From Zunongwangia mangrovi (lineage in GTDB: Bacteria > Bacteroidota > Bacteroidia > Flavobacteriales > Flavobacteriaceae), in NCBI RefSeq assembly GCF_900112105.1, contig NZ_FOKV01000012.1, forward strand, positions 1 to 53,235: a stretch of DNA of 53,235 nucleotides, in the 5' to 3' direction. Positions 1-27,884 of this stretch are shown in pieces (position 1 is the first letter of the stretch; every line of letters begins with the position of its first letter). Under the pieces are notes generated by a model. It was given only the letters and a program-made list of their open reading frames with translations, was not told where the DNA came from and ran no database searches. The position numbers were made by a program, and so were the translations under genes.

Positions 1-19
1 AAGCTTTCCATCTATTGTC

Positions 20-64: not shown

Positions 65-98
65 CATTTCTAGAATCTAGTATCAATATTCTAAAATC

Positions 99-1121
99 TT
101 ATCTCTTAATTCGTCCTCCGGTGCTACCGGCCATTACTTCTTCAACTTCTTCCGGACTTACCTGATTTACATCTCCCAGTATCGTATGTTTTAAAGCGCA
201 AGCTGCATTGGCAAATTCCAGTGCCTTTTGATCTTCAAAATGAATCAGTCCGTAAATCAGTCCGGCGGCATAGGCATCGCCGGTTCCGATTCGGTCCACC
301 ACATCGGTAATCTCTAGTTCCTGGGTTTCTAGGTATTCCGTCCCCGTCCATGCTCTTCCGTACACCTTCTGCCAGCTTGCACTGAGTCCGGTTCTTACCT
401 TATCAAATACTTTTTCGATCGAAGGGCATTCTTTGATCAAAGCTTTACTGGCTTCAATAAATCCTTCTTTCGAAAAATCATAGTCGGTCTTTAAAATCTC
501 ATTGATTTCATTAACCCCACCCACAAAAATTGTGGATAGGCTTACCAGTTCTTTTAAAACCTCATGACCGTCTTTCCCATATTGCCAAAGATTGCTGCGA
601 TAAGCAGGATCAGCAGTGATCGTAAGCCCTTTGGCTTTTGCTTTTTCGAGTCCGATCTTCAAGGTTTCATAAGCGCTTGCTGAGATCGCCGGGGAAATCC
701 CCGTCCAATGTAAATAACCGGCGTCTGCTAAAATTTCATCCCAGTTTACCTGTCTTGGGCTAATATTGGCAAAACTGCCATGCAAGCGATTATAGGCGAT
801 CTTACTAGCCCGCATCCCTGAACCGACTTCTAAAAAGTACAATCCCAAGGGATGATCGACTTTGCTAATAGCCGAGGTATCGATCCCATATTGACGCATT
901 TGCGCAATGGCGGCATCTCCTACTAAATCATTAGAAACATTAGTCACCTGTTGGGTATGTTCCCCAAAATACGAGAGCGAGGCCGCTACATTCATCTCGG
1001 TCCCTCCAAAATAGAAATCCATTTGGTGGGTTTGGGAGAGTTTGCGGTTCTCCGATGGACTCAGTCGCATCAGCACTTCGCCAAAAGAAACTATTTTGTG
1101 ATGTGAGTTTGAGTTTTTCAC
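99..1121 (-). CDS. kdgK: 2-dehydro-3-deoxygluconate kinase (PfkB family)
   Basis: Cytoplasmic sugar kinase of 340 aa that should phosphorylate 2-keto-3-deoxygluconate (KDG) to KDPG, the last step before aldolase cleavage in hexuronate catabolism. The N-terminal PfkB signature GGTEMN is at about residues 39-44. The C-terminal ATP-site signature with GTGDA has the catalytic base at about D282. It is the last visible gene of a minus-strand operon, only 3 nt after uxaC, and GH3 precedes that. The family also contains fructokinases and ribokinases, and KDG specificity is inferred from the uxaC/uxuA context. The KDPG aldolase gene is not in the window; it could lie just beyond the left edge on the same strand. 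Confidence 0.88.
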   Translation of the reverse strand: MKNSNSHHKIVSFGEVLMRLSPSENRKLSQTHQMDFYFGGTEMNVAASLSYFGEHTQQVTNVSNDLVGDAAIAQMRQYGIDTSAISKVDHPLGLYFLEVGSGMRASKIAYNRLHGSFANISPRQVNWDEILADAGYLHWTGISPAISASAYETLKIGLEKAKAKGLTITADPAYRSNLWQYGKDGHEVLKELVSLSTIFVGGVNEINEILKTDYDFSKEGFIEASKALIKECPSIEKVFDKVRTGLSASWQKVYGRAWTGTEYLETQELEITDVVDRIGTGDAYAAGLIYGLIHFEDQKALEFANAACALKHTILGDVNQVSPEEVEEVMAGSTGGRIKR

Positions 1122-4734: not shown

Positions 4735-4817
4735 TATTAATAATATTTTACCGGTAATTTTAACATAAACCAATTATTATACTGGATTAACAAATAAAAC
4801 ATAAAATTGAAATAAAA

Positions 4818-4829
4818 GCAACCGATTGC
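4818..4829. promoter_or_regulatory. Operator-like palindrome, copy 1
   Basis: GCAACCGATTGC is a near-perfect 12-bp palindrome with central CG. On the opposite strand it extends to TTACGCAATCGGTTGC, matching the copies at 18656-18670 and 18929-18943. An even palindrome centred on CG is typical of LacI-family operators. The identity of the binding protein is inferred, since no such regulator is in the window. Confidence 0.62.
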
Positions 4830-4875
4830 GTAAAATATTTTTTTAATAGCCAAATTTTATATACTTTTCAGTCCG

Positions 4876-4885
4876 CAATCGTTTG
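4876..4885. promoter_or_regulatory. Operator-like palindrome, copy 2
   Basis: CAATCGTTTG with flanks CCG and TTTAG follows the same pattern as the other three copies, with one change (T for G after the central CG). It lies 23 bp before the GH67 start codon and 57 bp from copy 1. Confidence 0.55.
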
Positions 4886-4907
4886 TTTAGTTAATTCGAC
4901 TTTAAAA

Positions 4908-7061
4908 ATGAAAAAAATACTATTTAGCCTCCTTTTTGTCCTGATAAGCAGCTATGCTGTTTGCCAGAATCCTTATGATTTATGGCTTCAATACGACAAA
5001 ATTGAAGATAAAACGCTTCTCGACTCCTATAAAAAACAGGTTTCAAATGTCTATTTAAACCTGAATTCGCCTACAGGAGATGTAATTAAAGAAGAAATTG
5101 AAAAGTCGTTTAAAGGCTTGCTGCACATCGAGCCAAAATTCGATAATAAAACGCCCAATCTTATTATTTCTACCCTAAACAAACTTGATCCATCGCTGAA
5201 AAAAAAGCTCTCTAAAACTTCTAATATTAATGATGAAGGCTATGTAATTCAGCATATTTCAGAAAAAGGAGAATCAAAGATTATACTTTCAGCAAAAACA
5301 GAAAAAGGACTATTGTACGGTGTTTTCAACTTTATAAAACAGATACAATTACATAAAGACCTGTCTAAATTGACGATTGTAGATTCCCCAAAGATTCAGA
5401 AAAGAGTTTTAAATCATTGGGATAACCTGGACCGCAGCGTAGAGCGTGGTTATGCCGGATTTTCGATCTGGGATTGGTATTTATTGCCAGAACTGATCAA
5501 ACAGGAATATATTGACTACGCCCGTGCGAATGCCTCAATTGGAATTAACGGTACGGTACTCACCAATGTAAACTCCAATGCTTTAGTGCTAAGCCCGCGA
5601 TATATTCAGAAATTAAAAGCCTTAGCCAATGTTTTTAGACCTTACGGTATCCAGGTGTATCTAACTGCTCGATTTTCTGCACCAATAGAAACGGGTGATC
5701 TGGAAACCGCAGATCCTCTTAATGCCGAAGTTAAGCAATGGTGGAAAGACAAAGCTGAAGAAATTTATACTGAAATTCCCGATTTTGGTGGGTTTTTAGT
5801 AAAAGCGAATTCTGAAGGACAGCCCGGTCCCAACAATTATGGCAGATCTCATGTAGACGGTGCCAATATGCTTGCTGAAGCGGTTGCTCCTTACGACGGA
5901 ATTATCATGTGGCGTGCTTTTGTTTATTCTGAAGAAAAACCTGAAGACCGCGCTAAACAAGCTTATTCTGAATTTAAACCTTTCGACGGAAAATTTAAGG
6001 ACAATGTATTGGTTCAGGTGAAAAATGGCGCAATCGATTTTCAGCCAAGAGAACCTTTTCATCCTTTGTTCGGCGCTATGCCAGATACACCTTTAATGAT
6101 GGAATTCCAGATCACCCAGGAATATCTTGGCGGCATGTCTCATTTAGTGTTTTTACCTAAACTTTTTGAGGAAGTTTTAGAAGAAGACACTTATACACAA
6201 GGAAAAGGAAGTACGGTTGGTAAAATTATCGATGGGCAGTTAAGCAACAAAAAACTTACGGGAATGGCCGGTGTCGCAAACATAGGAACGGCCAAAAACT
6301 GGACGGGACATCAATTTGGACAGGCCAACTGGTATGGCTTTGGAAGACTCGCCTGGAACCCTGAAACCAGTGCCGAAACTATCGCAAAAGACTGGCTAAA
6401 AATGACCTTTTCTAATAATGCCGAATTTGTAGATCCTATGAGCAAATTATTGCTCGATTCTAGAGAAGCTGTGGTAAATTATATGACTCCGCTTGGATTG
6501 CACCACATTATGGCGGCAGGACATCATCAGGGACCTGGCCCATGGGTTAAAGATATGCCACGACCAGATTGGACATCTGTTTATTATCATAAAGCAGACG
6601 AAAACGGAATTGGATTCGATAGAACTTCTAGCGGTAGTAATGCATTAGACCAATACGCTTCTGAAATTCAGGAAAAATATAGTGATCCGGCAACCACGCC
6701 AGATAAATATTTGCTTTGGTTTCATCACTTGCCATGGAACTATAAAATGAAAAGTGGAAAAACACTGTGGTACGAAATTACTGCGCACTATCAAAAAGGA
6801 GTAGAACAGGTAGAAGACATGCAAAAAACCTGGCAAAAAATGCAGAAATATGTAGATCCACAGGTTTTTAAAGAAACGAATATGCTTTTAGATATTCAGC
6901 TTAAAGAAGCAAAACAATGGCGAAATGCCTGCCTGCTTTACTTTCAGCAATTTTCTAAAATGGATCTCCCAGATCTTATTCCAGAAATCACAAAAGACTT
7001 AGACTATTATAAATCATTGGAAACTCCTTATGCTCCCGGCATAAGACCTTCCTGGAATTAA
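4908..7061 (+). CDS. GH67 alpha-glucuronidase, secreted
   Basis: Alpha-glucuronidase of 717 aa that removes 4-O-methyl-D-glucuronic acid from the non-reducing terminal xylose of aldouronic oligosaccharides made by GH10 enzymes. A signal peptide (about residues 1-19, ending AVCQ) precedes an N-terminal beta domain. The catalytic barrel shows the family-typical stretches NHWDNLDRSVERGYAG (about 169-184), the acid-containing KANSEGQPGP (E303), NGAIDFQPREP (D378) and EFQITQEYLG (E399/E405). These correspond in order to the Glu-Asp-Glu set known for GH67; the exact assignments are inferred. It is the first gene of a five-gene operon, with 7 nt to the next gene, and has operator copies 1 and 2 upstream. 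The length is normal for the family. Confidence 0.96.
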   Translation: MKKILFSLLFVLISSYAVCQNPYDLWLQYDKIEDKTLLDSYKKQVSNVYLNLNSPTGDVIKEEIEKSFKGLLHIEPKFDNKTPNLIISTLNKLDPSLKKKLSKTSNINDEGYVIQHISEKGESKIILSAKTEKGLLYGVFNFIKQIQLHKDLSKLTIVDSPKIQKRVLNHWDNLDRSVERGYAGFSIWDWYLLPELIKQEYIDYARANASIGINGTVLTNVNSNALVLSPRYIQKLKALANVFRPYGIQVYLTARFSAPIETGDLETADPLNAEVKQWWKDKAEEIYTEIPDFGGFLVKANSEGQPGPNNYGRSHVDGANMLAEAVAPYDGIIMWRAFVYSEEKPEDRAKQAYSEFKPFDGKFKDNVLVQVKNGAIDFQPREPFHPLFGAMPDTPLMMEFQITQEYLGGMSHLVFLPKLFEEVLEEDTYTQGKGSTVGKIIDGQLSNKKLTGMAGVANIGTAKNWTGHQFGQANWYGFGRLAWNPETSAETIAKDWLKMTFSNNAEFVDPMSKLLLDSREAVVNYMTPLGLHHIMAAGHHQGPGPWVKDMPRPDWTSVYYHKADENGIGFDRTSSGSNALDQYASEIQEKYSDPATTPDKYLLWFHHLPWNYKMKSGKTLWYEITAHYQKGVEQVEDMQKTWQKMQKYVDPQVFKETNMLLDIQLKEAKQWRNACLLYFQQFSKMDLPDLIPEITKDLDYYKSLETPYAPGIRPSWN

Positions 7062-7068
7062 AAATTAT

Positions 7069-7812
7069 ATGAACTCAAATTTAACCGCAATAGTAACCGG
7101 AGGAAATGCCGGCCTGGGATTCGCAACTGCTAAAAAACTTTGCGATGAAGGGATTACGACCTACGTGATTGGTCGAAACAAAGAAAAAACTTTAAATGCC
7201 TGCGCCGAAATTGGTGAAAAAGCGAAGCCATTTATTTTAGATCTTACTGAATTAGATAAAATTCCGGATGCAATTACTGAAATTGCAAAAGAAGCCGGGA
7301 AAATCGATATCCTGGTGAACAACGCCGGAATCAATATGAAAAAAGAATTTCTGGAAGTCGAAAATGAAGAATTTCAGAAGATACTTCATACCAACGTCAC
7401 CAGCGTTTTTGCCATGAGTAGAGAAGTCGCCAAAGTGATGAAAGAAAATGGTAAAGGAAGCATTATTAACATTAGTTCTATGGCGGCGCAGTACGGAATT
7501 CCGCATGTAATAGCCTATTCTGCCAGTAAAACCGCAATCGAAGGAATGACCAGGGCTATGGCTGTAGATCTTGCCAAATTTGGTATTCGGGTAAATTGTG
7601 TAGCGCCGGGATTCATTAAAACAAATATGTCTAGCAAAGCCTTAGATAGCGACCCAGAACGTAAAAATAAAGTATTGGGAAGAACCCCAATGGGGAAATT
7701 AGGCGAACCCGCAGATATTGGTGATGCCGTTTTCTATTACGCTACAGATCTTTCTAAATTCACCACAGGAACAGTACTTCCTATCGACGGTGGCAATTCA
7801 ATTGGATTTTAA
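7069..7812 (+). CDS. SDR oxidoreductase, proposed fructuronate reductase
   Basis: Classical short-chain dehydrogenase of 247 aa. The cofactor motif TGGNAGLG is at 10-17, NNAG at 84-87, and the catalytic triad is S137, Y150 and K154 (YSASK). The C-terminal SIGF follows the usual DGG. It is cytoplasmic with no signal peptide. Position between GH67 and uxuA, with spacings of 7 and 2 nt, places it at the one missing step of the uronate pathway: D-fructuronate to D-mannonate. Canonical UxuB is a long-chain dehydrogenase and is absent here; as I recall, Bacillus subtilis also uses an SDR at this step. The assignment rests on context, and gluconate 5-dehydrogenase-like activity is the main alternative. 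Confidence 0.8.
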   Translation: MNSNLTAIVTGGNAGLGFATAKKLCDEGITTYVIGRNKEKTLNACAEIGEKAKPFILDLTELDKIPDAITEIAKEAGKIDILVNNAGINMKKEFLEVENEEFQKILHTNVTSVFAMSREVAKVMKENGKGSIINISSMAAQYGIPHVIAYSASKTAIEGMTRAMAVDLAKFGIRVNCVAPGFIKTNMSSKALDSDPERKNKVLGRTPMGKLGEPADIGDAVFYYATDLSKFTTGTVLPIDGGNSIGF

Positions 7813-7814
7813 AT

Positions 7815-8987
7815 ATGGAAACCAGGATCATTAAAACCATGCGTTGGTATGGCGAAAGAGATGTGTTAAGCCTGCACGAATTAAAACAAGCCGGCATAAC
7901 TGGCATTGTGACCGCTTTGCATCACATTCCGGTAGGCGACATTTGGAGCAAAAATGAGATTCAAAAAACAAAGCAAAAAATAGAGAATCTTGGCATGAAG
8001 TGGGAAGTGGTAGAAAGCTTACCAGTTCACGAAAACATAAAAAAAAGAACAGGTAATTATAAAGAATTGATCGCTAATTATATTGAAAGTCTTAAAAATC
8101 TGGCCGCTCTCGATATTAAAGTGATCACCTATAATTTTATGCCGGTTTTGGATTGGGTGAGAACAGATCATAATTTCGAAAATGCTGAAGGTGCTGAAGT
8201 GCTTAAGTACGATCCGGTAAAATTTAGAGTTTTTGACCTGTTTTTGCTGAAAAGGCCTAATGCTGAAAATGATTATTCTGAAGCACAATTTTTGGAAGCT
8301 AAAGAGAAATTTAATACCACTTCAAAAGAAGAATTAAAAGTTCTTTCTAAAAGTGTGATGTTGGGACTTCCCGGAAGTACCGTAGATTTTACTGAAAAGG
8401 ATCTACTAGATCAGTTGGAAGGCTATAGCGAAATTACAGATGATATTCTTCGCGAGAACCTGATCTATTTTCTAAGCGAAATTTGTCCGGCAGTTGAAGA
8501 TTTGGGTATTAAAATGGCTATTCATCCAGATGATCCACCATTTTCTGTACTCGGTTTGCCACGTGTGGTTAGCAAAGCAAATGATCTAGAATACATTTTT
8601 AAAAATGTAGCTTCTAAAGCAAATGGTCTATGCTATTGCACAGGTTCGCTTGGCGCACAACCCGATAACGATTTAGTCGATATTTTTGAAACTTATAAAG
8701 ATCGTTTACATTTTCTTCATCTTAGAAATGTAAGTAAAAAAACTGATGGTGTTTTTATGGAATCTGATCATTTAAATGGCGATGTTCCTATGAAGAAAAT
8801 TATGCAGCTCATTATTGAGCATACCAATTCCACAGGAATAAAAATCCCAATGCGACCAGATCACGGCTATTTACATTCGCTTGAAAAAGAAAAGCCATAC
8901 TATGCTGGTTACTCATTTATAGGACGATTAAAAGGATTAGCAGAATTAACCGGACTAGAACTTGGTTTACAAAATACAGCATCATGA
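7815..8987 (+). CDS. uxuA: Mannonate dehydratase
   Basis: UxuA of 390 aa, close to the normal length of about 394, from the xylose-isomerase-like TIM-barrel superfamily. It dehydrates D-mannonate to 2-keto-3-deoxygluconate, the substrate of KdgK on the opposite strand. The N-terminal MRWYGERDVLSL motif, the metal-site region AIHPDDPP followed by GLPRVVS, CYCTGSLGAQPDND and the C-terminal MRPDHGY are all characteristic. No signal peptide. The start lies 2 nt after the SDR stop, and the stop overlaps the next start as ATGA, indicating translational coupling with GH10. Together with UxaC, the SDR and KdgK it completes glucuronate-to-KDPG conversion within the window. Confidence 0.96.
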   Translation: METRIIKTMRWYGERDVLSLHELKQAGITGIVTALHHIPVGDIWSKNEIQKTKQKIENLGMKWEVVESLPVHENIKKRTGNYKELIANYIESLKNLAALDIKVITYNFMPVLDWVRTDHNFENAEGAEVLKYDPVKFRVFDLFLLKRPNAENDYSEAQFLEAKEKFNTTSKEELKVLSKSVMLGLPGSTVDFTEKDLLDQLEGYSEITDDILRENLIYFLSEICPAVEDLGIKMAIHPDDPPFSVLGLPRVVSKANDLEYIFKNVASKANGLCYCTGSLGAQPDNDLVDIFETYKDRLHFLHLRNVSKKTDGVFMESDHLNGDVPMKKIMQLIIEHTNSTGIKIPMRPDHGYLHSLEKEKPYYAGYSFIGRLKGLAELTGLELGLQNTAS

Positions 8988-10102
8988 AAAAACAACTATG
9001 CTATATGCTAATATTGGTGCTTTTTGGCGTCGTTTCTTGCAAAGATGGCAAAAAGGAAAGTAAAGAAATAGCCACCAAAGAAACTAATGAACAGAAAGGC
9101 CTTAAAGATTATTTTGCTGAAGATTTTCCTATGGGTGTGGCAGTTTCCCCTGCCTCGTTTGAAGGAGAATCGAAAGATCTGATCTTAGCCGAATACAACA
9201 GCCTTACCCCTGAAAATGTGATGAAAATGGGTGTTATTCATCCAAAAAAAGATGAATACAATTGGGAATCTGCAGATAAGATCGTGGCTTTTGCCCAGGA
9301 AAACAATCTGAAAGTTCGCGGTCATGCGCTGGTTTGGCATCAACAAACGGGTAACTGGATCTTTAAAGATGAAAACGGAAATGATGTGAGTCGCAAAGTT
9401 TTATTAGATCGAATGAAAGCTCATATCGACTCGGTTGTTGGGCGATACAAAGGAAAAATCTATGCCTGGGATGTGGTAAATGAAGCCATCGATGATAATC
9501 CAGACAATTTTTTAAGAGATTCAAAATGGCTTGAGATCATTGGTGATGATTTTCTTACCAAAGCTTTCGAATTTGCTCATGAAGCAGATCCAGAAGCGAA
9601 GCTTTTTTATAATGATTACAACATTATAATTCCAGAAAAAAGAGATCGCGTTTTAAAACTTATCGCTAAATTAAAGGCAGAAGATGCGCCAATAAACGGC
9701 ATTGGAATACAAGGCCACTGGTCTATTTTTAGTCCTAGTGAAGAGGAATTAAGACAGGCTTTAAAAATGTACACTGAAACAGGTTTGGATGTACAAATAA
9801 CCGAGTTGGATGTTTCTCTTTACAAATGGGAAAAAGAACAGCGAGAACAACGCCCAGATGAATCTGACGAGTTTACGGAAAAACGTAAACTTGCGCAGAT
9901 AGAAGCTTACCAGAAGTTCTTTAAGGTATTTAGAGAATACAAAGAAGAACTTACCGGAATTACCTTTTGGAATATCTCAGATCGCAACACCTGGTTAGAT
10001 CGATATCCTGTTGAAGGAAGAAAAAATTACCCATTATTATTTAATGAAAATTACGAAAGAAAACAAGTTTATGACTCCATTATCCAATTCAGTAAAAAAT
10101 AA
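8984..10102 (+). CDS. GH10 endo-1,4-beta-xylanase, lipoprotein
   Basis: Family 10 xylanase of 372 aa that hydrolyses the xylan main chain. The lipobox GVVSC places the lipidated cysteine at C19, followed by a charged linker (KDGKKESKE), so it is membrane anchored, possibly on the outer membrane. The single GH10 TIM barrel has GHALVWHQQTG, the acid/base Glu in WDVVNEA (E167), GIQGHW, the nucleophile in ITELD (E274) and ITFWNISDR near the end. There is no carbohydrate-binding module or internal insertion. The start overlaps the uxuA stop by 4 nt, and its 3' end overlaps the GH115 start by 32 nt. GH10 products with a decorated non-reducing end are the natural substrates of the neighbouring GH67. 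Confidence 0.96.
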   Translation: MKKQLCYMLILVLFGVVSCKDGKKESKEIATKETNEQKGLKDYFAEDFPMGVAVSPASFEGESKDLILAEYNSLTPENVMKMGVIHPKKDEYNWESADKIVAFAQENNLKVRGHALVWHQQTGNWIFKDENGNDVSRKVLLDRMKAHIDSVVGRYKGKIYAWDVVNEAIDDNPDNFLRDSKWLEIIGDDFLTKAFEFAHEADPEAKLFYNDYNIIIPEKRDRVLKLIAKLKAEDAPINGIGIQGHWSIFSPSEEELRQALKMYTETGLDVQITELDVSLYKWEKEQREQRPDESDEFTEKRKLAQIEAYQKFFKVFREYKEELTGITFWNISDRNTWLDRYPVEGRKNYPLLFNENYERKQVYDSIIQFSKK

Positions 10103-12872
10103 AACGCGGCTAGTTTTTGCGATTTTCGCCTTGCTGGGCTTCAGTATGCTTGGGCAAGAAACTATTGTCTCCAGCACCGCTGGAAACGGCAGTTTTGGTC
10201 TTGTTACCGCAAGTCAAACTGCAAACTTAGTATTAGATAATTCAGATTATGAAGGTGTTGCCATTGCGGCTAAAAACTTTCAGAAAGATATTGAACGTGT
10301 TACCGGTAAATTACCAGAATTACTTTCCGAAGAAAATTCCGAAGTAAAAAAACACGGAAATGTAATTATTGGAACACTAGGAAAAAATACGATGATCGAT
10401 AGTTTGGTGCAACATCAAAACATCGATGTTTCAAAGATCGAAGGAAAATGGGAAGCCTATATCATTAAAAAATCTGGTGAAAATTTAGTGATTATCGGTA
10501 GCGATAAGCGCGGGACTATCTTTGGTATCTACGAACTTTCTAAGCAAATTGGTGTTTCTCCCTGGTATTGGTGGGCAGATGTTCCTGTAAAAAAATCGAA
10601 TGAATTATACATTGCTAAAAATGGTGTAACCAGTACAGGACCTAAAGTTCAGTATCGTGGGATATTTATTAATGATGAAGCTCCTGCCCTATCCACCTGG
10701 GTAACCGAAAATTATGGCAAGTTTAATCATGAATTTTACGAGCCTGTTTTTGAACTTATTTTGCGTTTAAAAGGAAATTATATGTGGCCTGCCATGTGGG
10801 GAAAAGCTTTCTATGATGATGACCCCGCAAATGGTGTTTTGGCTGATAAATACGGGATCGTTATGGGAACTTCGCATCACGAACCATTAGCCCGTGCGCA
10901 AGCCGAATGGGGACGATACGGTAGTGGCGAATGGAACTACGAAACCAATGAGGATACTTTAAAAAGTTTTTGGCGCAAAGGAATCAAGCGTATGGACGAT
11001 CGCGAAACTTTAGTAACGATCGGGATGCGTGGTGATGGTGACGAACCAATGACCGAAGGCACTGCGATTAGCTTACTGGAGCGTATTGTGAAAGATCAGC
11101 GAGAGATCATTAGCGATGTGACTCAAAAACCAACTGAGGAAACTCCGCAGGTTTGGGCGCTTTATAAAGAAGTTCAGGATTATTATGACCAGGGAATGCG
11201 AGTTCCAGATGACGTCACCCTTTTACTGGCCGATGATAACTGGGGAAATATAAGAAAACTTCCAAAACTTGCCGATAGCACAAGAAGCGGCGGTTACGGG
11301 ATCTATTATCACTTCGATTATGTTGGTGGTCCAAGAAGTTATAAATGGATAAATACGACTCAAATTTCCAGAGTTTACGAGCAAATGTCACTCGCTTACG
11401 ATTATCACGCTCGCAAAGTTTGGATCACTAATGTTGGTGACCTTAAGCCAATGGAATACCCAATTAGCTTCTTTTTGGATTATGCCTGGAATCCTGAAGA
11501 TTTTAGTATTGAAGATCTAAAAGCTTATCCAGAACAATGGGCGACCTCTCAATTTGGAAAAGAATATGCTGCTGAAATTGCCGAATTACTTCAGAAATAT
11601 ACAACTTACAACAGCCGAAGAAAACCAGAATTACTTTCTGAAGAAACCTATAGTTTGACGCAGTTTAATGAAGCTGAAGAAATTCTTAGCGATTTTAACG
11701 AATTAGAGAAAAAAGCTGATGAAATTGCAGGGAAACTGGAGGAAAAATATCAATCGGCTTACTTCCAATTGGTGCTTCACCCAATAAAAGCTTCAGCAAA
11801 TCTAAATAGAATGTATATCGCATTGGCGAAAAACAAGCTGTATGCTGAACAACAGCGTAACACCACAAACAGGTATGCAGAAAAGGTTTCAGAATACTTC
11901 AAGAAAGATGAAGAAATTACCGAAGCTTATCATTCAATCGAAAATGGGAAGTGGAATCATATGATCTTTCAGCCGCATATTGGATTTACGTCATGGTTTG
12001 ATCCAAAACAAAATATTGAGCCAGAAACCAGCAAGATCGATATTCCAGAAGAAGCTGGATTGGGTATAGCGATCGCGAATAGCGAAGATTATTATCCAAA
12101 AAGTTCAAATCTTAGCTTACCGATATTCGATAAAAACAACGCGAAATCGTCGGTTGAAATTTTTAACCGCGGAAAAGAGGAATTAGAGATCAAGATCAAA
12201 AAACTTCCTAAATGGCTAAAGGTGTCTAAAACTAAAGCTGAAATTAACGAATCTGAGCACTTATTTTTTGAATTAGTTTCTGAAAAATTACCGGCTAAAA
12301 CCACTAAGGAAAGCTTTATAATTCAATCTGATGATGATAAAGTTGAAATTGAAGTTACTTATCAGCCATTCGACTTTAAAACGGAAGGTTTTGTCGCTAA
12401 AAATGGTATCATTAGCATTCCTGCGAATAAATATCAGGAAAATAATGGTTGGGAAATGATCCCAGATCTTGGGAAAAGAGATATTGCCTTAAGACCTGAG
12501 AGTAGTTTTACCCAGGAAGCTTCAGAAAATGCAAGCTTAAGTTATCAATTTTCGATCAAAGAAGATACTGAAGCTAAAATGAGCTTTTTGATCTCTCCAA
12601 GCTTGGATTTTCTAGATAATGGCGGACTAAAATTTGCATATTCCATCGATGGCGGTGACCTAAATACACTTAATTTACTAAAAGACACCAAAGATAACTG
12701 GGGAACATCTGTAAGTAATAATGTGACAGAAGTAATTGAGGAATTAAATCTTGAAAAAGGAGCACATACTCTTAAAGTTTACGCTATAGATCCGGGAATT
12801 GTGCTGCAAAATATCATCATTGAAACCGATAGCGCTACACCATTAAATACGTATTTGGCGCCGACAGAATAA
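10071..12872 (+). CDS. GH115 alpha-glucuronidase, secreted
   Basis: Family 115 xylan alpha-1,2-glucuronidase of 933 aa that removes (methyl)glucuronic acid from internal xylose residues of the polymer, complementing GH67. The frame is open from 10011, but the start at 10071 places a signal peptide (residues 1 to about 30, core LVFAIFALLGFSML) at the N-terminus. It therefore overlaps the GH10 stop by 32 nt. The order seen is an N-terminal domain with GSDKRGTIFGIYELS, a catalytic barrel with YRGIFINDEAPAL, GNYMWPAMWGKAF, GTSHHEP, GMRGDGDEPM and LLADDNWGN, a helical region with KVWITNVGDLKPMEYP, and a C-terminal beta-rich part as in full-length GH115. It is the last gene of the operon; a strong terminator follows 43 nt downstream. 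Confidence 0.94.
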   Translation: MTPLSNSVKNKTRLVFAIFALLGFSMLGQETIVSSTAGNGSFGLVTASQTANLVLDNSDYEGVAIAAKNFQKDIERVTGKLPELLSEENSEVKKHGNVIIGTLGKNTMIDSLVQHQNIDVSKIEGKWEAYIIKKSGENLVIIGSDKRGTIFGIYELSKQIGVSPWYWWADVPVKKSNELYIAKNGVTSTGPKVQYRGIFINDEAPALSTWVTENYGKFNHEFYEPVFELILRLKGNYMWPAMWGKAFYDDDPANGVLADKYGIVMGTSHHEPLARAQAEWGRYGSGEWNYETNEDTLKSFWRKGIKRMDDRETLVTIGMRGDGDEPMTEGTAISLLERIVKDQREIISDVTQKPTEETPQVWALYKEVQDYYDQGMRVPDDVTLLLADDNWGNIRKLPKLADSTRSGGYGIYYHFDYVGGPRSYKWINTTQISRVYEQMSLAYDYHARKVWITNVGDLKPMEYPISFFLDYAWNPEDFSIEDLKAYPEQWATSQFGKEYAAEIAELLQKYTTYNSRRKPELLSEETYSLTQFNEAEEILSDFNELEKKADEIAGKLEEKYQSAYFQLVLHPIKASANLNRMYIALAKNKLYAEQQRNTTNRYAEKVSEYFKKDEEITEAYHSIENGKWNHMIFQPHIGFTSWFDPKQNIEPETSKIDIPEEAGLGIAIANSEDYYPKSSNLSLPIFDKNNAKSSVEIFNRGKEELEIKIKKLPKWLKVSKTKAEINESEHLFFELVSEKLPAKTTKESFIIQSDDDKVEIEVTYQPFDFKTEGFVAKNGIISIPANKYQENNGWEMIPDLGKRDIALRPESSFTQEASENASLSYQFSIKEDTEAKMSFLISPSLDFLDNGGLKFAYSIDGGDLNTLNLLKDTKDNWGTSVSNNVTEVIEELNLEKGAHTLKVYAIDPGIVLQNIIIETDSATPLNTYLAPTE

Positions 12873-12915
12873 TTGTAACTTCCATACAATTAATTTAGTT
12901 TGATTACAGTAGAAT

Positions 12916-12940
12916 GCCGGGGTGGTTCCCGGCTTTTTTT
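12916..12940 (+). terminator. Intrinsic terminator after the xylan operon
   Basis: Stem GCCGGG (12916-12921) and CCCGGC (12928-12933) with a 6-nt loop is followed directly by seven T. It ends the GH67-SDR-uxuA-GH10-GH115 transcript. Confidence 0.88.
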
Positions 12941-13307
12941 ATGTCTTTATTCGATAGCTTGATCAATTGATGCATTTCTGTCCCCAAGGCTATCTACTTA
13001 TCTTTAAGCAAATACTATTTCAGAATAAATATCGCTTGTCATATGTGCTTTTTTATTCTAAAAAAATTCCTTTAAAATAGCTAATATTGATCTATACGCG
13101 GTGGTGTTTTTCTTTGATATTAGAATATTTCAAAGTTACTTTTTTGTTTCCTGGAAGTATTATATTCTAGCTTTAGAAAACATCTCCAAAACTTCAAATC
13201 TTAGCTACAATTGGCGTTTTTAAGGCTTAGAAAGAAGAAATAATCACAGCCTAAAATCAAAAGAAATCGAATAAGTAAGTCCTAAAAACTTCAGAAGTAA
13301 ACTAGCT

Positions 13308-13363
13308 GGGGCAAGCCCCCGAGACATTCTTTAGAAACAATCTTTTAATCTCAAGGCAAGCCT
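13308..13363. repeat. Pair of related short palindromes
   Basis: GGGGCAAGCCCC (13308-13319) and AGGCAAGCCT (13354-13363) are both GGC-AA-GCC hairpins followed by a similar flank (CGAGACATT versus CGAAGTATT). The outer stem pair changes from G-C to A-T between copies, keeping pairing. They look like two diverged copies of one unit about 46 nt apart. Confidence 0.4.
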
Positions 13364-13440
13364 CGAAGTATTGTAACCTTTGGCGGCGCCAATAAAAGCT
13401 TTTAACTTTATCGAATATCGGTAAGTATTAAACAAAAAAA

Positions 13441-13465
13441 GAGAGCTTTAAAAGCTCTCTTTTTC
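13441..13465 (-). terminator. Terminator of susCD transcript
   Basis: Perfect stem GAGAGCTTT (13441-13449) and AAAGCTCTC (13451-13459), flanked by an A-run on the left and a T-run on the right, so it can work on both strands. It lies 22 nt past the susD stop. No plus-strand gene runs into it directly, so its main client is susCD. Confidence 0.82.
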
Positions 13466-13487
13466 TAATCTAAATGCTAATTCAATT

Positions 13488-15407
13488 TTATTGATAACCA
13501 GGGTTTTGGTAAGCACTTTTTTCAGCATCTGACACATCTAAGTTATCTATCTGACCTCTAGGAATAGGTCTTAGATAATGATATGGTTCTATATTTCTTG
13601 TTGTCACTGTTGGTGAATGATCTGATGCATCGTTACCTCCAATTTCGTAAGTTCCTGCGATCTCGTTCCATTTTTGGGTACGAACAAGATCATACCAGCG
13701 ATAGCCTTCTCCAAAATACTCACGAGAACGTTCAGCTAATATATAATCGATATCAATATCTGTTGGCGTAGCCGCAACTAAGGCCGCACTATTATCCTCG
13801 ATACGCTCTTCCTGCTCTCCATTATCATAACACCAGTTACCGGCACGATCACGAATCACATTAATAAGATCGTAAGCAGAATAACTTCCAGAAGCACCTT
13901 TTACAGCAGCTTCTGCAGCAAGGAAATAGAATTCAGAAAACTTCGCGATTGGGAAAGGACGAGTAATAGCTCCGTTAGGAGAACCTAGTCCGTCACCATT
14001 ATCGGTACGATACGTACCCAATTTCCAAAGTCCTGGATAGAATCTTCTATTGATCTCATCTGGATTGATCACATAATCTGATCGTCCAGGAAGTTCACCT
14101 CCGCCAATGTTTCCTCCATTTACGTAGGTAACATTGTCGTTATGTTCATCTAAGAATGAAACTACAGCATCACCGGGAGCGATTTCCATTCCGTTGGCTG
14201 CAGTAAGTGTAGCTTCTGGAGCGCCACCTTTATCCCAGTTTCCTCGATAGCTGGTCACAAATGTCGCATCGTAACGAGAATCTAGTTCTTTTTCAGCAAA
14301 AGTTTCGGTTAAGACTCCAATAGGCGGCGCCATTCTTGTCCATGGTCTACCATAGCTCTGCGCAGCTTCTCTTTGCACAGCTGAAACTCCGTCTACGCTA
14401 ATTGTTGTATAATTAGAAGTTACCATCCAAACCGCAGTATTAGCACTACCATCTGTACCACTATATCCTAAGTTAGCTCCATTGTATAATTGGCTTTCTT
14501 CTGTACGATCTGCATAAAGCATCATTTCAGCATGGCGATCGTTTGTAGCCACATGCACATCATAAAAACAATCCAGTAAACGATATGGGCCAGGATTTTC
14601 AATTCCTTCAACTGCAAGATCATATGCTCTTTGGTAATAATACGAAGGATCGTTACCATCTGGATCTGTTCTTGGCGCTTCTGGATAAGTAGGAATATTA
14701 TTTGGATTCTCTAACCACCAGGCGTAAGTTAAATACGCCTTTGAAAGGAATAATCTCGCCACGTTCTTAGTCACCGCTCCAGTTAATCTAGGATTATCTG
14801 GTAAGTCTTCTACAGCTCTTTCTAGATCTGGCAAGATAGCCCGGGTATAAACTTCGGGCACCGTGTTACGCGTAGAAGTTCTAACTGCAGAACTATTGAA
14901 GGCTAATTCACCAGATCCAAGATCTAATGGCACTCCCCCATAGTTTTGAACTAATAGAAAGTAATTGAACGCTCGGAAGAATCTTGCTTCACCAATTAGT
15001 GAATTATCCAGCCCAACGGCTTCAGCATTTTCTATGATACCACTAGCTGTGTTTATTGCCGGGAATGCATTTCCCCAAACAACGCTAACAGAAAATCCAC
15101 TTTCTGAACTTAAATTTCCCTGCCCTGCAAGATCCAGATCAAAAAAGTTGTTGTTTGCACTCTGGGCAGCAGTATATTCATCTGTTCCTGTTTCAGTAAG
15201 GTTTAAATAATATGCAAACCCAAAAACGTTTCGCATATTTTGGTATAAATAGGTTAGTCCTCCCTGAACTCCCAGTTCTGTCGTAAAAAATTCTGGAGTA
15301 AAAACTCCTCTTGTCTCTTCTTGTAAAATATCGTCTGTACAAGATTTTAATCCGAATACCGATACCAATGAAAATATGGCTATAGGTATAATTCTAAATT
15401 TTCTCAT
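13488..15407 (-). CDS. SusD-like outer-membrane glycan-binding lipoprotein
   Basis: RagB/SusD family protein of 639 aa that sits on the cell surface over the SusC channel and binds glycan. The lipobox GLKSC (about C23) is followed by TDDILQEE, an acidic stretch like the Bacteroidota surface-export signal. TPR-like helices include GEARFFRAFNYFLLVQNYGGVPL, and a C-terminal SusD part contains LAERSREYFGEGYRWYDLVR and ends PGYQ. At 639 aa it is somewhat longer than the starch SusD. It lies 9 nt downstream of susC in the same transcript. Xylan specificity is inferred from the neighbouring xylanolytic genes and the shared operator. Confidence 0.95.
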   Translation of the reverse strand: MRKFRIIPIAIFSLVSVFGLKSCTDDILQEETRGVFTPEFFTTELGVQGGLTYLYQNMRNVFGFAYYLNLTETGTDEYTAAQSANNNFFDLDLAGQGNLSSESGFSVSVVWGNAFPAINTASGIIENAEAVGLDNSLIGEARFFRAFNYFLLVQNYGGVPLDLGSGELAFNSSAVRTSTRNTVPEVYTRAILPDLERAVEDLPDNPRLTGAVTKNVARLFLSKAYLTYAWWLENPNNIPTYPEAPRTDPDGNDPSYYYQRAYDLAVEGIENPGPYRLLDCFYDVHVATNDRHAEMMLYADRTEESQLYNGANLGYSGTDGSANTAVWMVTSNYTTISVDGVSAVQREAAQSYGRPWTRMAPPIGVLTETFAEKELDSRYDATFVTSYRGNWDKGGAPEATLTAANGMEIAPGDAVVSFLDEHNDNVTYVNGGNIGGGELPGRSDYVINPDEINRRFYPGLWKLGTYRTDNGDGLGSPNGAITRPFPIAKFSEFYFLAAEAAVKGASGSYSAYDLINVIRDRAGNWCYDNGEQEERIEDNSAALVAATPTDIDIDYILAERSREYFGEGYRWYDLVRTQKWNEIAGTYEIGGNDASDHSPTVTTRNIEPYHYLRPIPRGQIDNLDVSDAEKSAYQNPGYQ

Positions 15408-15416
15408 ATTTTCTTT

Positions 15417-18400
15417 TTAAAATGAAATGTTTAATCCTATCAAATAGTTACGTGTCGATGGAATATTGGTTCCTATTGTTGGAATACCTCTGGAAATATT
15501 ACTCGTATTAACCGCTACGTTTTGACGGTTTCCGTTACCATTAACTCCTGAATTTGTTATTTCTGGATCTAAACCAGATTCGTCATGAAAAGGTGAAAAA
15601 AGTACGAAAGGGTTTTGTGCAGAAGCATAAACTCTTAATCTATTGATCCCTAAGTTATCTATTAAATCCTGCTCAAAATTATATCCTAAAGTAAGTGAGC
15701 GAACTTTTAAATAAGAACCATCAAAATATCCTAACGTACTTGCATATTTTTGGTTATCACCACTCTGAATCCCTCCTGGTGCAGGATATTTAGCATCTGT
15801 ATTGGTAGGTGTCCAATAATCCACATCTACGTTGTTTTGTCTACCAGTTAACAGGTTTAAATATCCACTAGATGAATATAAAGTACTTACTAAAGTTCCT
15901 CCAGATTGAAAAGTTCCCACCATAGTTAGATCAATATTCTTATAAGCTAAGCGAGTATTGAATCCACCCTGAAAATCTGGTGTTGGATCGATAATTTTTC
16001 TATCCTCTGCTCCTATTGGTCGTACTGGAGAACCATCTGCATTATACTCTCCGGTATATCTAACTTTGATCATTCCGGCAGCACTACCTCCTGGTTCATA
16101 TTGTTGTAAATATTGGAAATCTGGATCTGATTCGTTCCAAAGTCCGATTCTTTCGTAATCGTAGATCACATTAATTGGAGATCCCACAAACCAAAGGTTT
16201 CCTTCATCTCTTAACTGTCCTGAAGCCAAAGAGGTAATCTCATTTTGGTTACTGTAAAGGTTTATACCAGCATCCCATGTAAATCCATCTGGATTATCGA
16301 TAATGGTACCGTTTAATGAAATTTCAAATCCTTTGTTTTGAGTAGCACCAATATTACTGGTTACATTTCCAACCCCAGAAGAAGATGGTAATCCAAGAGT
16401 ATAAAGTATGTCATTCGTTTTAGTTATATAATATTCAAATGTACCTGATAAGCGGTTATTAAATAATCCAAAATCAAGACCATAGTTGTAGGTTTGCGAA
16501 AACTCCCATCCAAGGTTTGCATTTGGTAATTGATTCACATAATATCCGGTAGCAAATGTACTTCCGAAGTTATAATTTACAGTGCTTAATCTACCCTGTA
16601 CAGAGTATGGTGCAATCGCCTGATTTGATGTTTCTCCATAACCTGCACGTAATTTTAAGAGATTTATCCATGCTACATCGTCCATAAAGGTTTCATTACC
16701 AATATTCCATCCAACTGAAACCGCAGGATAAGTTACCCACTTGTTTCCTGGTGCTAATCTGGAAGAACCATCACTACGTAAAGTAGCCGTCATTAAATAA
16801 CGATTATCGTATTGGTACATCACTCTTCCCATATACGAAAGCAATCCTGTAGCAGAATAGCCTGTACCATAGTTTGTAATATCTTCGGAAAGCGCTGAAT
16901 CTATATTGTACCATAAAGAAGATTCATTCGGAATATTTTGAGCAGTTAGACCTACGTTATCCGTCTCAGTATTTTGCGAAGAGAATAATCCAACGAAATT
17001 CACTTTATGTTTTTCAGCAAATGTTCTGTCGAATAAAATTTGATTTTCAATCACGTAATCTCTGGTGATCGAACTATTGTAACTAGCTGAAGATGGGTTT
17101 TGTTCATTATAGTTAAAAACTCCACGTCCTGTAAAATTACCATCTCTTGCCGTTCTAAAATTAAGACCAAGATTTAAACGATACTTTAGGCCCTCTATCC
17201 ACGGAATTTCAACTTCTGCGTAAACGTTATTGTAAGAACCATAATCTAACTGTTCATTTTTTCGACCATCACCAATACGATTAATTTCATTTTCAGTAGG
17301 AATCCATAGGTTATCAGCCTGAGTTTGCAGACGAACCGACTCTAAGAAATTTCCGTTTTCATCATACGGACTTAAAAGTGGTGATGCTGCTAATGCTCCA
17401 AATACACCTACAATACTGCTGGTTTTATTAAAATTCATTACTGAATTTAATCCGAAACTAAAAAGCTCTCCTACTTCCTGGTCTACCTGTGCTCTCAAAG
17501 AATATCTTTGGAAAGAATCTCCCGGTGCTACCGAAGTTTCCTTAAAATATCCCAAACCTACATTATAGGATCCTTTTTCTGAACCTCCTTTTACACTTAC
17601 ATCGTGTGTAGTTTGCAAACCAGTTCCATAAATAAGGTCCTGCCAATCTGTATCGTTTGCGAGATCCTCATCACCACCTAATTCATATATAGGGGTTCCA
17701 CCCTGATTAGGGTGTGCCGCAACATCTGCTCTTAATTGCGTAAGTTGTGCTGCATTCATCATAGGATATTTTGCAAAAACATCTTTTACTGCATAATATG
17801 TATTGTAAGAGAAAGTTGCTTTTTGTCCCTGTCTACCAGATTTTGTAGTGATAAGAATTACCCCATTCGCACCTCTGGAACCATAAATAGCAGTTGCAGA
17901 AGCATCTTTAAGGATATCGAGACTTTCGATATCATTAGGACTAATATCACTTAAACCACCCGAAAACGGGATTCCATTTAATACAATTAAAGGATCGTTA
18001 TTTCCAGAAAGTGAACGTGTACCACGAATTCGCACTTGTGGCGAAGCTCCTGGTCTTGTACTATTGGTAGAAATATTTACCCCAGCAGCACGACCTATTA
18101 AAGCATCCTGAAAATTGGCAGTTTTAACCTCATTAAGTTCTTCACCTTTTACAGAAACTACAGATCCTGTTACAGATTCTCGACTTTGTGTACCATAACC
18201 AACCACAACAACTTCAGATAAAGCTTCAGTATCATCCTGCATCGTAACATTTATTTGTGTACGACCATTAACCGGAATATCCTGACTTTGATATCCCATG
18301 AAGCTATAACTAAGTGTAGCATCTGAAGGTACATTTTCTAAAGTATAATTTCCATCAAAATTAGTTGTGGTACCCTGGTTCGTACCAACGATGAAAACAT

Positions 18401-18557
18401 TTACGCCAGGCAATGGCAATCCATTGGCGTCAATGACTTCCCCGCTTACTGTTATGTTCTGAGCGTAACCGCTGGCGAACATCATTAAGAAGAGTAGTAT
18501 TGAAAATTTAGGCTGAACACCCAATTTTCGTACATAGTTAGAAATCTTTTCCTCCAT
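15417..18557 (-). CDS. SusC/RagA-type TonB-dependent transporter
   Basis: Outer-membrane TonB-dependent channel of 1046 aa that imports oligosaccharides with its SusD partner. A signal peptide (about residues 1-32, ending GYAQ) is followed by a carboxypeptidase-regulatory-like domain (about 35-110, with GLPLPGVNVFIVGTNQGTTT). Next come a TonB-box-like EVVVVGYGTQ, a plug with RIRGTRSLSGNNDPLIVLNG and SATAIYGSRGANGVILITTKSG, and a long beta barrel ending in the aromatic strand NYLIGLNISF. It is the first gene of the susCD transcript. A TAnnTTTG element and an operator-like palindrome lie about 90-120 nt upstream. There is no N-terminal extension of the sigma/anti-sigma signalling type, so control by a repressor is more likely. 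Confidence 0.96.
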   Translation of the reverse strand: MEEKISNYVRKLGVQPKFSILLFLMMFASGYAQNITVSGEVIDANGLPLPGVNVFIVGTNQGTTTNFDGNYTLENVPSDATLSYSFMGYQSQDIPVNGRTQINVTMQDDTEALSEVVVVGYGTQSRESVTGSVVSVKGEELNEVKTANFQDALIGRAAGVNISTNSTRPGASPQVRIRGTRSLSGNNDPLIVLNGIPFSGGLSDISPNDIESLDILKDASATAIYGSRGANGVILITTKSGRQGQKATFSYNTYYAVKDVFAKYPMMNAAQLTQLRADVAAHPNQGGTPIYELGGDEDLANDTDWQDLIYGTGLQTTHDVSVKGGSEKGSYNVGLGYFKETSVAPGDSFQRYSLRAQVDQEVGELFSFGLNSVMNFNKTSSIVGVFGALAASPLLSPYDENGNFLESVRLQTQADNLWIPTENEINRIGDGRKNEQLDYGSYNNVYAEVEIPWIEGLKYRLNLGLNFRTARDGNFTGRGVFNYNEQNPSSASYNSSITRDYVIENQILFDRTFAEKHKVNFVGLFSSQNTETDNVGLTAQNIPNESSLWYNIDSALSEDITNYGTGYSATGLLSYMGRVMYQYDNRYLMTATLRSDGSSRLAPGNKWVTYPAVSVGWNIGNETFMDDVAWINLLKLRAGYGETSNQAIAPYSVQGRLSTVNYNFGSTFATGYYVNQLPNANLGWEFSQTYNYGLDFGLFNNRLSGTFEYYITKTNDILYTLGLPSSSGVGNVTSNIGATQNKGFEISLNGTIIDNPDGFTWDAGINLYSNQNEITSLASGQLRDEGNLWFVGSPINVIYDYERIGLWNESDPDFQYLQQYEPGGSAAGMIKVRYTGEYNADGSPVRPIGAEDRKIIDPTPDFQGGFNTRLAYKNIDLTMVGTFQSGGTLVSTLYSSSGYLNLLTGRQNNVDVDYWTPTNTDAKYPAPGGIQSGDNQKYASTLGYFDGSYLKVRSLTLGYNFEQDLIDNLGINRLRVYASAQNPFVLFSPFHDESGLDPEITNSGVNGNGNRQNVAVNTSNISRGIPTIGTNIPSTRNYLIGLNISF

Positions 18558-18643
18558 ATTAGTAAATTTTAAATTAAAAGATTTAAATCATATTAGAATG
18601 ATAAAAATTGTTAGGTTAATTTTTCGATATGATAAATATATCA

Positions 18644-18651
18644 CAAAATTA
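18644..18651 (-). promoter_or_regulatory. susC promoter -7 element
   Basis: Read on the minus strand this is TAATTTTG, a perfect match to the Bacteroidota -7 consensus TAnnTTTG. It predicts a leader of about 80 nt for susC. No clear TTG at -33 is present. Operator copy 3 at 18656-18676 covers that position, which suits repression. Confidence 0.5.
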
Positions 18652-18655
18652 CTAA

Positions 18656-18676
18656 TTACGAAATCGGTTGCGTTAA
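18656..18676. promoter_or_regulatory. Operator-like palindrome, copy 3
   Basis: TTACGAAATCGGTTGCGTTAA is the longest copy, almost symmetrical (TTACG-AAA-TCGG-TTG-CGTTAA, one mismatch in the left half). It sits just upstream of the susC -7 element, where a repressor would block polymerase. Confidence 0.6.
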
Positions 18677-18928
18677 AACTTTTATTCAAATTGACTATAA
18701 GACCGAATTTTAACAGTCTAAATAATGATATTCAGCACTTTAAGTTATTTATTATTTTTCTAAATTCTTATAAAATTGAAACAATTTAGTATTACATATA
18801 TAAATACAGCTATCTAAAAATTAAGATTTCATGACACAAAGAGACTAAAAAAGATTAAATTATGATAAATATGAGGTGTTTTCTAGGAATAACTCAATAA
18901 TAAACGTATAAAATACGCGTAAACACTA

Positions 18929-18943
18929 TTACGCAATCGGTTG
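18929..18943. promoter_or_regulatory. Operator-like palindrome, copy 4
   Basis: TTACGCAATCGGTTG is identical over 15 bases to the reverse strand of copy 1 and differs from copy 3 at one position. It is about 273 bp upstream of copy 3, a distance compatible with looping. It is about 115 bp beyond the PAP2 stop, so it more likely serves susC. Confidence 0.6.
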
Positions 18944-19058
18944 TTTAAATATCAAGCAATTAAAATAGCGTTATTTATACAACTTATATATCTATTTGTA
19001 TATGCTTAAGAAAAGATCAAGAGGGAAAAAAATTCAGTTAAATCTATCTGAGAAGTAT

Positions 19059-27882: not shown

Positions 27883-27884
27883 AA

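Follow-up and report, generated by a model that had tools for sequence, protein, structure and literature searches.

Control of xylan PULs in Bacteroidota is usually of the hybrid two-component sensor (HTCS) type, and in marine Flavobacteriaceae an HTCS or an ECF sigma pair is the regulator to which loci of this kind are commonly attributed. In Bacteroides, the catabolism of glucuronate, galacturonate and KDG is predicted to be under the LacI-family proteins UxuR, UxaR and KdgR, as described in two reports (PMC3878776, PMC4052901). In Xanthomonas, xylan CUT loci are described as repressed by XylR, a protein of the LacI type (PMC13282271). Closer in taxonomy, the account of Gramella flava JLT2011 gives xylan PULs that comprise GH67, susCD and a lacI gene, and whose susC, susD and aguA are upregulated on xylan (PMC5306329). 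Here we analyse a stretch of 53,235 nucleotides from Zunongwangia mangrovi (contig C27, hereafter the window), whose control regions carry a palindrome that is very probably the operator of an autoregulated LacI/GalR-family repressor of a glucuronoxylan/glucuronate regulon, probably encoded about 3.5 kb to the left of the window.

The locus and its palindrome

The window contains a susC/susD pair together with clustered carbohydrate-active enzymes (Table 1), the combination by which a PUL is recognized, and kdgA, TRAP transporter genes and lacI lie on contig C22. The short-chain dehydrogenase next to uxuA does not reach the cut-off that NCBIfam sets for D-mannonate oxidoreductase. The preliminary description had assigned the operators to three transcripts; the count is too low in that lacI also has a copy. 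A divergent GH43/esterase operon on C22 probably shares the operator.

Table 1. Coordinates of genes, operators and predicted promoter boxes in the window.
Feature	Coordinates	Strand	Remarks
C22 overlap	1..95	none	identical to the last 95 bases of C22
PfkB-family kinase, probable 2-keto-3-deoxygluconate kinase (kdgK)	99..1121	-	specificity inferred from context
uxaC, glucuronate isomerase	1125..2522	-	
GH3 enzyme	2527..4734	-	listed ORF start TTG 4773; ATG 4734 likelier
-7-like box TTTATTTG, GH3 promoter	4791..4798	-	17 nt after operator 1; consensus prediction only
Operator 1	4816..4831	none	GH3/GH67 divergent gap; 1 mismatch to ACGCAAnCGnTTGCGT; matrix 27.4
-7-like box TACTTTTC, GH67 promoter	4862..4869	+	consensus prediction only
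Operator 2, weak	4873..4888	none	over predicted GH67 start site; 3 mismatches; matrix 6.5
GH67 alpha-glucuronidase	4908..7061	+	
Short-chain dehydrogenase, probable mannonate oxidoreductase	7069..7812	+	role inferred from context
uxuA, mannonate dehydratase	7815..8987	+	
GH10 xylanase	8984..10102	+	
GH115 enzyme	10011..12872	+	start as listed runs into GH10; actual start probably downstream
susD	13488..15407	-	
susC	15417..18557	-	
Two candidate -7 boxes, susC promoter	18633..18651	-	consensus-based candidates
susC candidate box TATATTTA	18633-18640	-	17 nt after operator 3
susC candidate box TAATTTTG	18644-18651	-	6 nt after operator 3
Operator 3, proximal before susC	18658..18673	none	1 mismatch; matrix 30.0; 15/16 columns conserved
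Operator 4, distal before susC	18931..18946	none	2 mismatches; matrix 24.4

The four copies of CAAnCGnTTG listed in the preliminary description are all present where it placed them; three are exact, and the one at 18661-18670 reads AAATCGGTTG. This short core is by itself uninformative and was discarded as evidence, since it occurs at chance frequency genome-wide (31 places versus 34 for the reversed control; 22 in the window with up to one mismatch versus 20.7 expected). The signal sits in the longer palindrome ACGCAAnCGnTTGCGT, which with at most one mismatch is found at three places in the 4.13-Mb genome (window 4816, window 18658 and C22:40615) versus approximately 0.26 expected from base composition. 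Two more places have two mismatches, viz., window 18931 and C25:234164, the latter within a listed PEP carboxykinase ORF and close to the ORF start. The 18-mer TACGCAAnCGnTTGCGTA, searched over the same genome with up to two mismatches, retrieves four places only, namely window copies 1, 3 and 4 and the C22 lacI promoter. The genome scan that the preliminary description had proposed thus finds the extended motif concentrated in the control regions of the xylan locus and at a LacI gene.

A score matrix was built from 27 sites (26 unique), all from non-Zunongwangia loci, with a script that discarded sites within open frames longer than 600 bases and thereby lost some true gap sites too. Operators 3, 1 and 4 are the window's three top scores, followed by 10.1, and a simulated 4 Mb (order-3 model) gave no score of 18 or higher; the training set includes several genomes later scored with the matrix, and the mismatch counts at GH67 promoters given below are independent of it. 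Seven other genome neighbourhoods inspected for further targets gave no additional strong site, and two words with three mismatches upstream of a GH88 gene (C9:5220 and C9:5307) look related to the operator but distinct.

Operator 1 has a site at the equivalent place in Z. pacifica, Gillisia, two Christiangramia and Salinimicrobium (the Gillisia and Christiangramia bathymodioli loci overlap with the 299-genome panel used below), and within the genus its conservation is not higher than that of its gap (p 0.10). Sites before susC are also found in Gillisia, Christiangramia oceanisediminis and Salinimicrobium, and operator 4 has 14/16 columns conserved versus 218/427 of the other columns. Conservation in orthologous regions had been suggested as a check, and the site is kept in the same gap of the orthologous loci. 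Operator 2, whose matrix score is inside the background, was discarded as a full-strength operator on that score and retained as a weak conserved site: all 16 columns are conserved in the three Zunongwangia genomes, and Gillisia and Salinimicrobium have a similar sequence in the corresponding position, which is not clearly recognizable in the two Christiangramia. It is hardly credible that all this is a chance resemblance of AT-rich promoter DNA; the ten-base core does occur at chance frequency, but the long form is restricted to these control regions with its position kept across genera, and the comparison of GH67 promoters below likewise disfavours chance.

Predicted promoters and the probable regulator

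Candidate -7-like boxes suggest how the operators are placed relative to the promoters. Among 19 hand-picked promoters (8 GH3, 7 lacI, 3 susC, 1 uxaC), 10 have such a box at a distance of 16-17 nt past the operator, with a second cluster at 5-6 nt in 7; the 19 omit the GH67-direction, GH43-direction, operator 2, operator 4, weak-site and Z. pacifica rows of an earlier 28-instance list and include some newly added rows, and a shuffle test on them overstates independence because the promoters share descent. The 16-17 nt spacing is absent from GH67 promoters. The -33 element is described as weakly defined in F. johnsoniae (PMC6847099). The operator is predicted to overlap the promoter at GH3, lacI and susC, in agreement with the overlap of copy 3 with the susC promoter that had been noticed earlier, and copy 2 falls, as had also been proposed, over the likely GH67 start.

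This geometry bears on whether the same LacI might at these operators be chiefly an activating or dual regulator that does not work by covering promoters, which we consider improbable. In favour of this reading are the distances: at GH67 some 30 nt separate the strong operator from the likely -7 box downstream of it, and before susC operator 4 is the more distant of the pair by 273 bp. The promoter overlap of the GH3, lacI and susC operators and the position of copy 2 argue against it. Looping by a tetramer was also considered and rejected, as the centre spacings (57 and 273 bp within the window, 99 bp between the two sites at lacI) have no common helical phase and the LacI, at 345 aa, has by eye no obvious long C-terminal extension.

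The preliminary description reported neither a LacI regulator nor an HTCS in the window, and none is found on C27; the five HTCS-type Y_Y_Y matches in the genome are on C11, C12, C15 and C25, none being on C22 or C27. Among those ORFs that were scanned, a subset of all, no ECF sigma/anti-sigma pair was noticed. A LacI-family gene with its own operator copy is located on C22, so that a LacI-type gene near other matches, which had been recommended as a further search, is indeed found. The regulator is probably encoded some 3.5 kb beyond the left end of the window and missing from it only because the contigs break between kdgA and kdgK, given the 95-bp identity between C22 and the window and the gene order that runs across the join (dctM-dctQ-dctP-kdgA on C22, kdgK-uxaC-GH3 in the window), an arrangement shared with Gillisia, Christiangramia oceanisediminis and Salinimicrobium. 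The overlap alone does not prove the join, because a third identical copy of the 95-bp sequence is present on C17, and we infer from overlap and gene order that C22 adjoins C27.

The C22 LacI has an N-terminal helix-turn-helix (PF00356, 38.5 bits with a cut-off of 27) and a periplasmic-binding-protein-like sensor domain (PF00532, PF13377), and its recognition helix, YSPSTISRAL, is nearly invariant among close orthologues. None of the NCBIfam LacI equivalogs (CytR, RbsR, CcpA and others) passes, the best being CytR with 217 bits against a cut-off of 436. An even palindrome with a central CG stands at the promoters of lacI itself and of its neighbours, and this, together with the sites kept in orthologous gaps, supports the earlier reading of the motif as a LacI-family operator. 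The genome encodes six LacI-type proteins, and it is very unlikely that one other than the C22 LacI is the main binder: a related word does occur upstream of the C17 LacI (matrix 15.4) and before kduI/kduD and a GH88 gene, but only C22 lacI has a strong upstream site (26.7; others at most 15.4), and its orthologues, the only ones traced of the six, track the GH67 site.

Distribution among Flavobacteriaceae

GH67 is present in 36 of 299 genomes of the family. A site with up to three mismatches precedes it in 17/17 genomes with a LacI orthologue of at least 59% identity, in 5/6 with a LacI of 51-55% (G110, with 55%, has no site before GH67) and in 0/13 without a LacI of either class, five of which (G011, G129, G172, G189, G227) carry a 41-43% LacI; the classes were set after the identities were known and the statistical tests ignore kinship among genomes. 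In 6 of these 13 genomes, and in 0/23 of the others, GH67 has an HTCS-type domain no more than 3 kb away. The one-mismatch motif occurs in 16/18 LacI genomes (56 places) versus 28/281 others (31 places), the reversed-pattern control giving about 24 places over the 299 genomes by a manual table count. The same-genus genome G100 lacks this LacI, the motif and GH67 alike. No one- or two-mismatch site is found near lacI in G245 (61% LacI). A perfect or one-mismatch site adjoins a LacI of only 42-43% identity in G018 and G217, and the operator word is therefore common to more distant LacIs too.

The neighbourhoods of lacI also bear on the signal. GH67 and/or the short-chain dehydrogenase-uxuA (SDR-uxuA) genes are present at 20/20 LacI loci examined, and in the lacI stretches of G094 and G245 SDR-uxuA is the sole match among the genes searched for, a set that excluded xylose genes. 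A metabolite of the uronate pathway is the probable inducer. A variant that overlaps with this explanation, in which a xylo-oligosaccharide, aldouronate or xylose is the inducer of the same repressor at the same operator, is a real if lesser possibility; xylanases and xylosidase-type genes belong to the regulon and Xanthomonas XylR is described as responding to xylo-oligosaccharides and xylose (PMC13282271), but the gene content of the LacI loci speaks for the uronate.

Proposed mechanism and known systems

We hypothesize that, without inducer, a LacI dimer would cover the -33 region at the GH3, lacI and susC promoters, that at the GH67 promoter it would occupy both the start site and a position upstream of it, and that RNA polymerase would then be unable to start. 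Glucuronoxylan degradation would give rise to a product in the cytoplasm, most probably one from the glucuronate pathway, which would bind the repressor and free all promoters together. SusCD uptake, xylanase, glucuronidases and probably the GH43/esterase operon would be released, along with the glucuronate-catabolic enzymes and their TRAP transporter, and the repressor would curb its own synthesis.

Flavobacterial glucuronoxylan loci may come in two interchangeable builds. In one, an HTCS beside GH67 would detect a signal outside the cytoplasm; in the other, a half-site of the LacI operator would also serve as the -33 element, and a uronate signal in the cytoplasm would govern the entire locus together with its SusCD. 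Relatives would have exchanged one build for the other and kept the enzymes; this is a tentative proposal, and nearly an even call. A regulator, its operators and its regulon are now proposed for glucuronoxylan use in marine Flavobacteriaceae, and GH67 loci with LacI and with HTCS form a natural experiment in which the signal sensed could be compared. As the operator is predicted to overlap a Bacteroidota-type promoter, the pair could serve as an inducible promoter in these bacteria.

The control of this locus is a well-supported new example of an already known type of sugar switch. It resembles UxuR, UxaR and KdgR of Bacteroides, to judge from their description, in being LacI-family control of uronate catabolism in the same phylum, and differs in that susCD and xylan enzymes are among the operons concerned. 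It shares with Xanthomonas XylR, compared by description and not by protein sequence or operator, a LacI-type repressor over a TonB-dependent xylan uptake and degradation set; XylR is, however, proteobacterial with xylose and xylo-oligosaccharides as effectors. Gramella flava JLT2011, a related flavobacterium whose description names neither operator nor regulon, is similar in gene content, with xylan-induced PULs that contain GH67, susCD and lacI. HTCS-controlled xylan PULs encode the same enzyme class, whereas this locus has no HTCS nearby and its sensor would be a cytoplasmic LacI.

An extended palindrome in the control regions of the xylan locus

The genome (4.13 Mb in 32 contigs, of which the window is contig C27) carries a glucuronoxylan locus in the left 18.5 kb of the window. 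The preliminary description had placed four copies of CAAnCGnTTG in the control regions of this locus; all four are present, though the one at 18661 departs from the exact core in having AAA in place of CAA in its left half. The ten-base core alone is worthless, since it occurs at 31 places in the genome against 34 for the reversed pattern. The longer palindrome, unlike the core, is specific: in a whole-genome scan, a check of the kind that had been proposed, ACGCAAnCGnTTGCGT with at most one mismatch is limited to three places, of which contig C22 has one and the window the other two; base composition predicts about 0.26. Weaker matches to ACGCAAnCGnTTGCGT mean nothing, as the 66 places at up to three mismatches fall below the 141 of the reversed control. 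The 18-mer form TACGCAAnCGnTTGCGTA matches 12 places at up to three mismatches, equal to its control; only four of these have two mismatches, namely copies 1, 3 and 4 and the C22 site, and the eight with three include copy 2 and a second C22 site. A matrix built from other genera ranks copies 3, 1 and 4 first, second and third in the window and leaves copy 2 in the noise; a sequence similar to copy 2 is also found at its position in Gillisia and Salinimicrobium.

Features of the window (contig C27), other contigs of the genome (C9, C17, C22, C25), other genomes (G) and fetched stretches (L)
Feature	Location	Direction or remark
GH3-uxaC-kdgK	window, glucuronoxylan locus	leftward
GH67-SDR-uxuA-GH10-GH115	window, glucuronoxylan locus	rightward
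susC-susD	window, glucuronoxylan locus	leftward
Copies 1, 2	window 4816-4831, 4873-4888	GH3/GH67 gap
Copies 3, 4	window 18658-18673, 18931-18946	before susC
CTTATAGTCA-TTTGAATA block	window about 18677-18701	directly upstream of operator 3
7TMR-DISM sensor kinase, then LuxR-type response regulator	window 26041-28508	non-hybrid two-component pair
LacI-family gene	C22:40778-41815	
Second C22 site	C22:40515-40532	
GH43, SASA/GH2N-type esterase, aldose epimerase, GDSL esterase, GH43	C22	operon divergent from lacI
Glucuronoyl-esterase-like gene, sugar transporter	C22	after that operon, same strand
95-bp sequence	window 1-95; C22:45329-45423; C17:326725-326819	identical
95-bp sequence, partial	C25:751144-751193	80% alike
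ATGTAATCGATTGCAT-type word	C22:1941 (L037:1941)	before kduI/kduD
ATGTAATCGATTGCAT-type word	C9:5307 (L028:2308)	before GH88 gene
ATGTAATCGATTGCAT-type word	C17 (L002)	upstream of another LacI gene (C17:319123)
ACGAAATCGTTTTCGT	C25:234164 (L023:3165)	2 mismatches; close to PEP carboxykinase ORF start
ACGAAATCGTTTTCGT, similar word	L102:9075	ahead of G108 LacI gene
Motif, perfect	G018:C1:1690582	adjoins LacI gene
Motif, one mismatch	G217:C24:13457	adjoins LacI gene

Column conservation over three Zunongwangia genomes is high at copy 3 (15 of 16 columns against 217 of 427, p 4e-4), copy 4 (14 of 16, p 0.003), copy 2 (16 of 16, p 0.017) and each of two sites in the lacI gap (16 of 16 against 181 of 291, p 7e-4); copy 1 reaches 15 of 16, yet its entire gap is conserved (p 0.10). 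The CTTATAGTCA-TTTGAATA block is likewise conserved in these genomes (upstream of susC in the window and in L118 and L119) and may be an upstream promoter element or bind a further factor. In the comparison of related genomes that had been suggested as a check, sites are retained ahead of susC orthologues (Z. atlantica, Z. pacifica, Christiangramia oceanisediminis, Salinimicrobium and Gillisia) and in the same gap of orthologous loci. Among 20 twenty-kb LacI neighbourhoods of family members (LacI at least 59% identical to that of C22 in 17 of them, 54-55% in three), a site at up to two mismatches was found at least once in 17, usually in the interval from GH3 or uxaC to GH67 or else next to lacI; none was found at this threshold in the stretches of G245, G110 and G157.

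The LacI gene and its association with the site

The C22 site ends 147 bases ahead of a LacI-family gene, whose nearest named relatives in one scan come from Zunongwangia atlantica (100% identity) and Z. pacifica (93%). C22 ends with the same 95 bases that begin the window, and the genes running leftward from the C22 end are kdgA, dctP, dctQ and dctM, which would complete the GH3-uxaC-kdgK operon. The order lacI-dctM-dctQ-dctP-kdgA-kdgK-uxaC-GH3-GH67 is found on one contig in Gillisia, C. oceanisediminis and Salinimicrobium, in Z. pacifica without kdgA-kdgK, and as lacI-uxaC-GH3-GH67 in C. bathymodioli. The overlap by itself is no proof of the join, because a third identical copy exists on C17; taken with the gene order of the relatives, it indicates that the regulator missed in the preliminary description most likely lies just past the contig break. 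The repeated sequence, placed between kdgA and kdgK, may have caused that break.

Across 299 genomes of the family, a LacI of at least 59% identity is present in 18 and one of 51-55% in six others. At up to one mismatch, the motif is found in 16 of these 18 genomes (56 places in all) and in 28 of the remaining 281 (31 places, about the reversed-control count over all 299). GH67 is encoded in 36 genomes, and the 500 bases upstream of it hold a site at up to three mismatches in 17 of 17 with the closer LacI, in five of six with the 51-55% LacI and in none of 13 with neither. Thus, the site tracks LacI rather than the enzyme. The motif also adjoins LacI genes of only 42-43% identity (G018, G217), and the operator word is therefore older or wider than the glucuronoxylan regulon.

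In six of the 13 genomes with neither class of LacI (G011, G075, G129, G172, G227 and G289; a count uncorrected for shared ancestry), a Y_Y_Y domain of the HTCS type, the usual PUL regulator of Bacteroidota, lies 2.2-2.7 kb from GH67, within open frames of 1382-1402 codons assigned to HTCS by this domain only. Among the 23 LacI-bearing GH67 genomes the nearest Y_Y_Y domain is 16 kb from the main GH67 (G144). In G037, where GH67 is at a contig end, the view covers one flank. This possible exchange of LacI and HTCS is the part likely to surprise specialists.

Promoter geometry and the putative inducer

The F. johnsoniae -7 element is given as TAnnTTTG, with the start 4-5 nt downstream, and the -33 element there is poorly marked (PMC6847099). 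Allowing one mismatch, a box begins 16 or 17 nt past the operator in 10 of 19 chosen promoters (five GH3, two lacI, three susC), a count that 0 of 2000 shuffles equalled. Boxes also gather, in smaller number, 5-6 nt past the operator (7 of 19); because the window susC has a perfect one at that distance, its -7 assignment is uncertain. The 16-17 nt spacing would put the operator between about -45 and -30, with its TTG near -33, so that a protein bound there would lie across the promoter. For GH67, the strong operator sits at a greater distance upstream, and the predicted start falls under the weak copy 2, in agreement with what had been proposed. Together, these positions favour repression. GH67 and/or SDR-uxuA is present at every one of the 20 LacI loci, and our best guess from this gene content, made with moderate confidence, is that the inducer is a glucuronate-pathway metabolite; the main alternative is a xylo-oligosaccharide or aldouronate.

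Relation to known regulators

The ATGTAATCGATTGCAT-type word, which is related to the glucuronoxylan operator, may be the operator at which a paralogous regulator controls unsaturated-uronate genes. In Bacteroides, glucuronate, galacturonate and KDG catabolism is predicted to be under LacI-family regulators (PMC3878776, PMC4052901), xylan loci of Xanthomonas are repressed by the LacI-type XylR (PMC13282271), and both LacI regulators and HTCS are named for beta-1,4-xylan systems (PMC12125979). The xylan PULs of Gramella flava, whose susC, susD and aguA go up on xylan, have a lacI gene marked in them (PMC5306329). Titles and abstract openings among the matches listed, from a coverage mostly outside subscription journals, gave no description of this operator or regulon in Flavobacteriia. 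The glucuronoxylan operator and regulon described here are thus a well-supported new example of the LacI control that is predicted or known for uronate and xylan genes.
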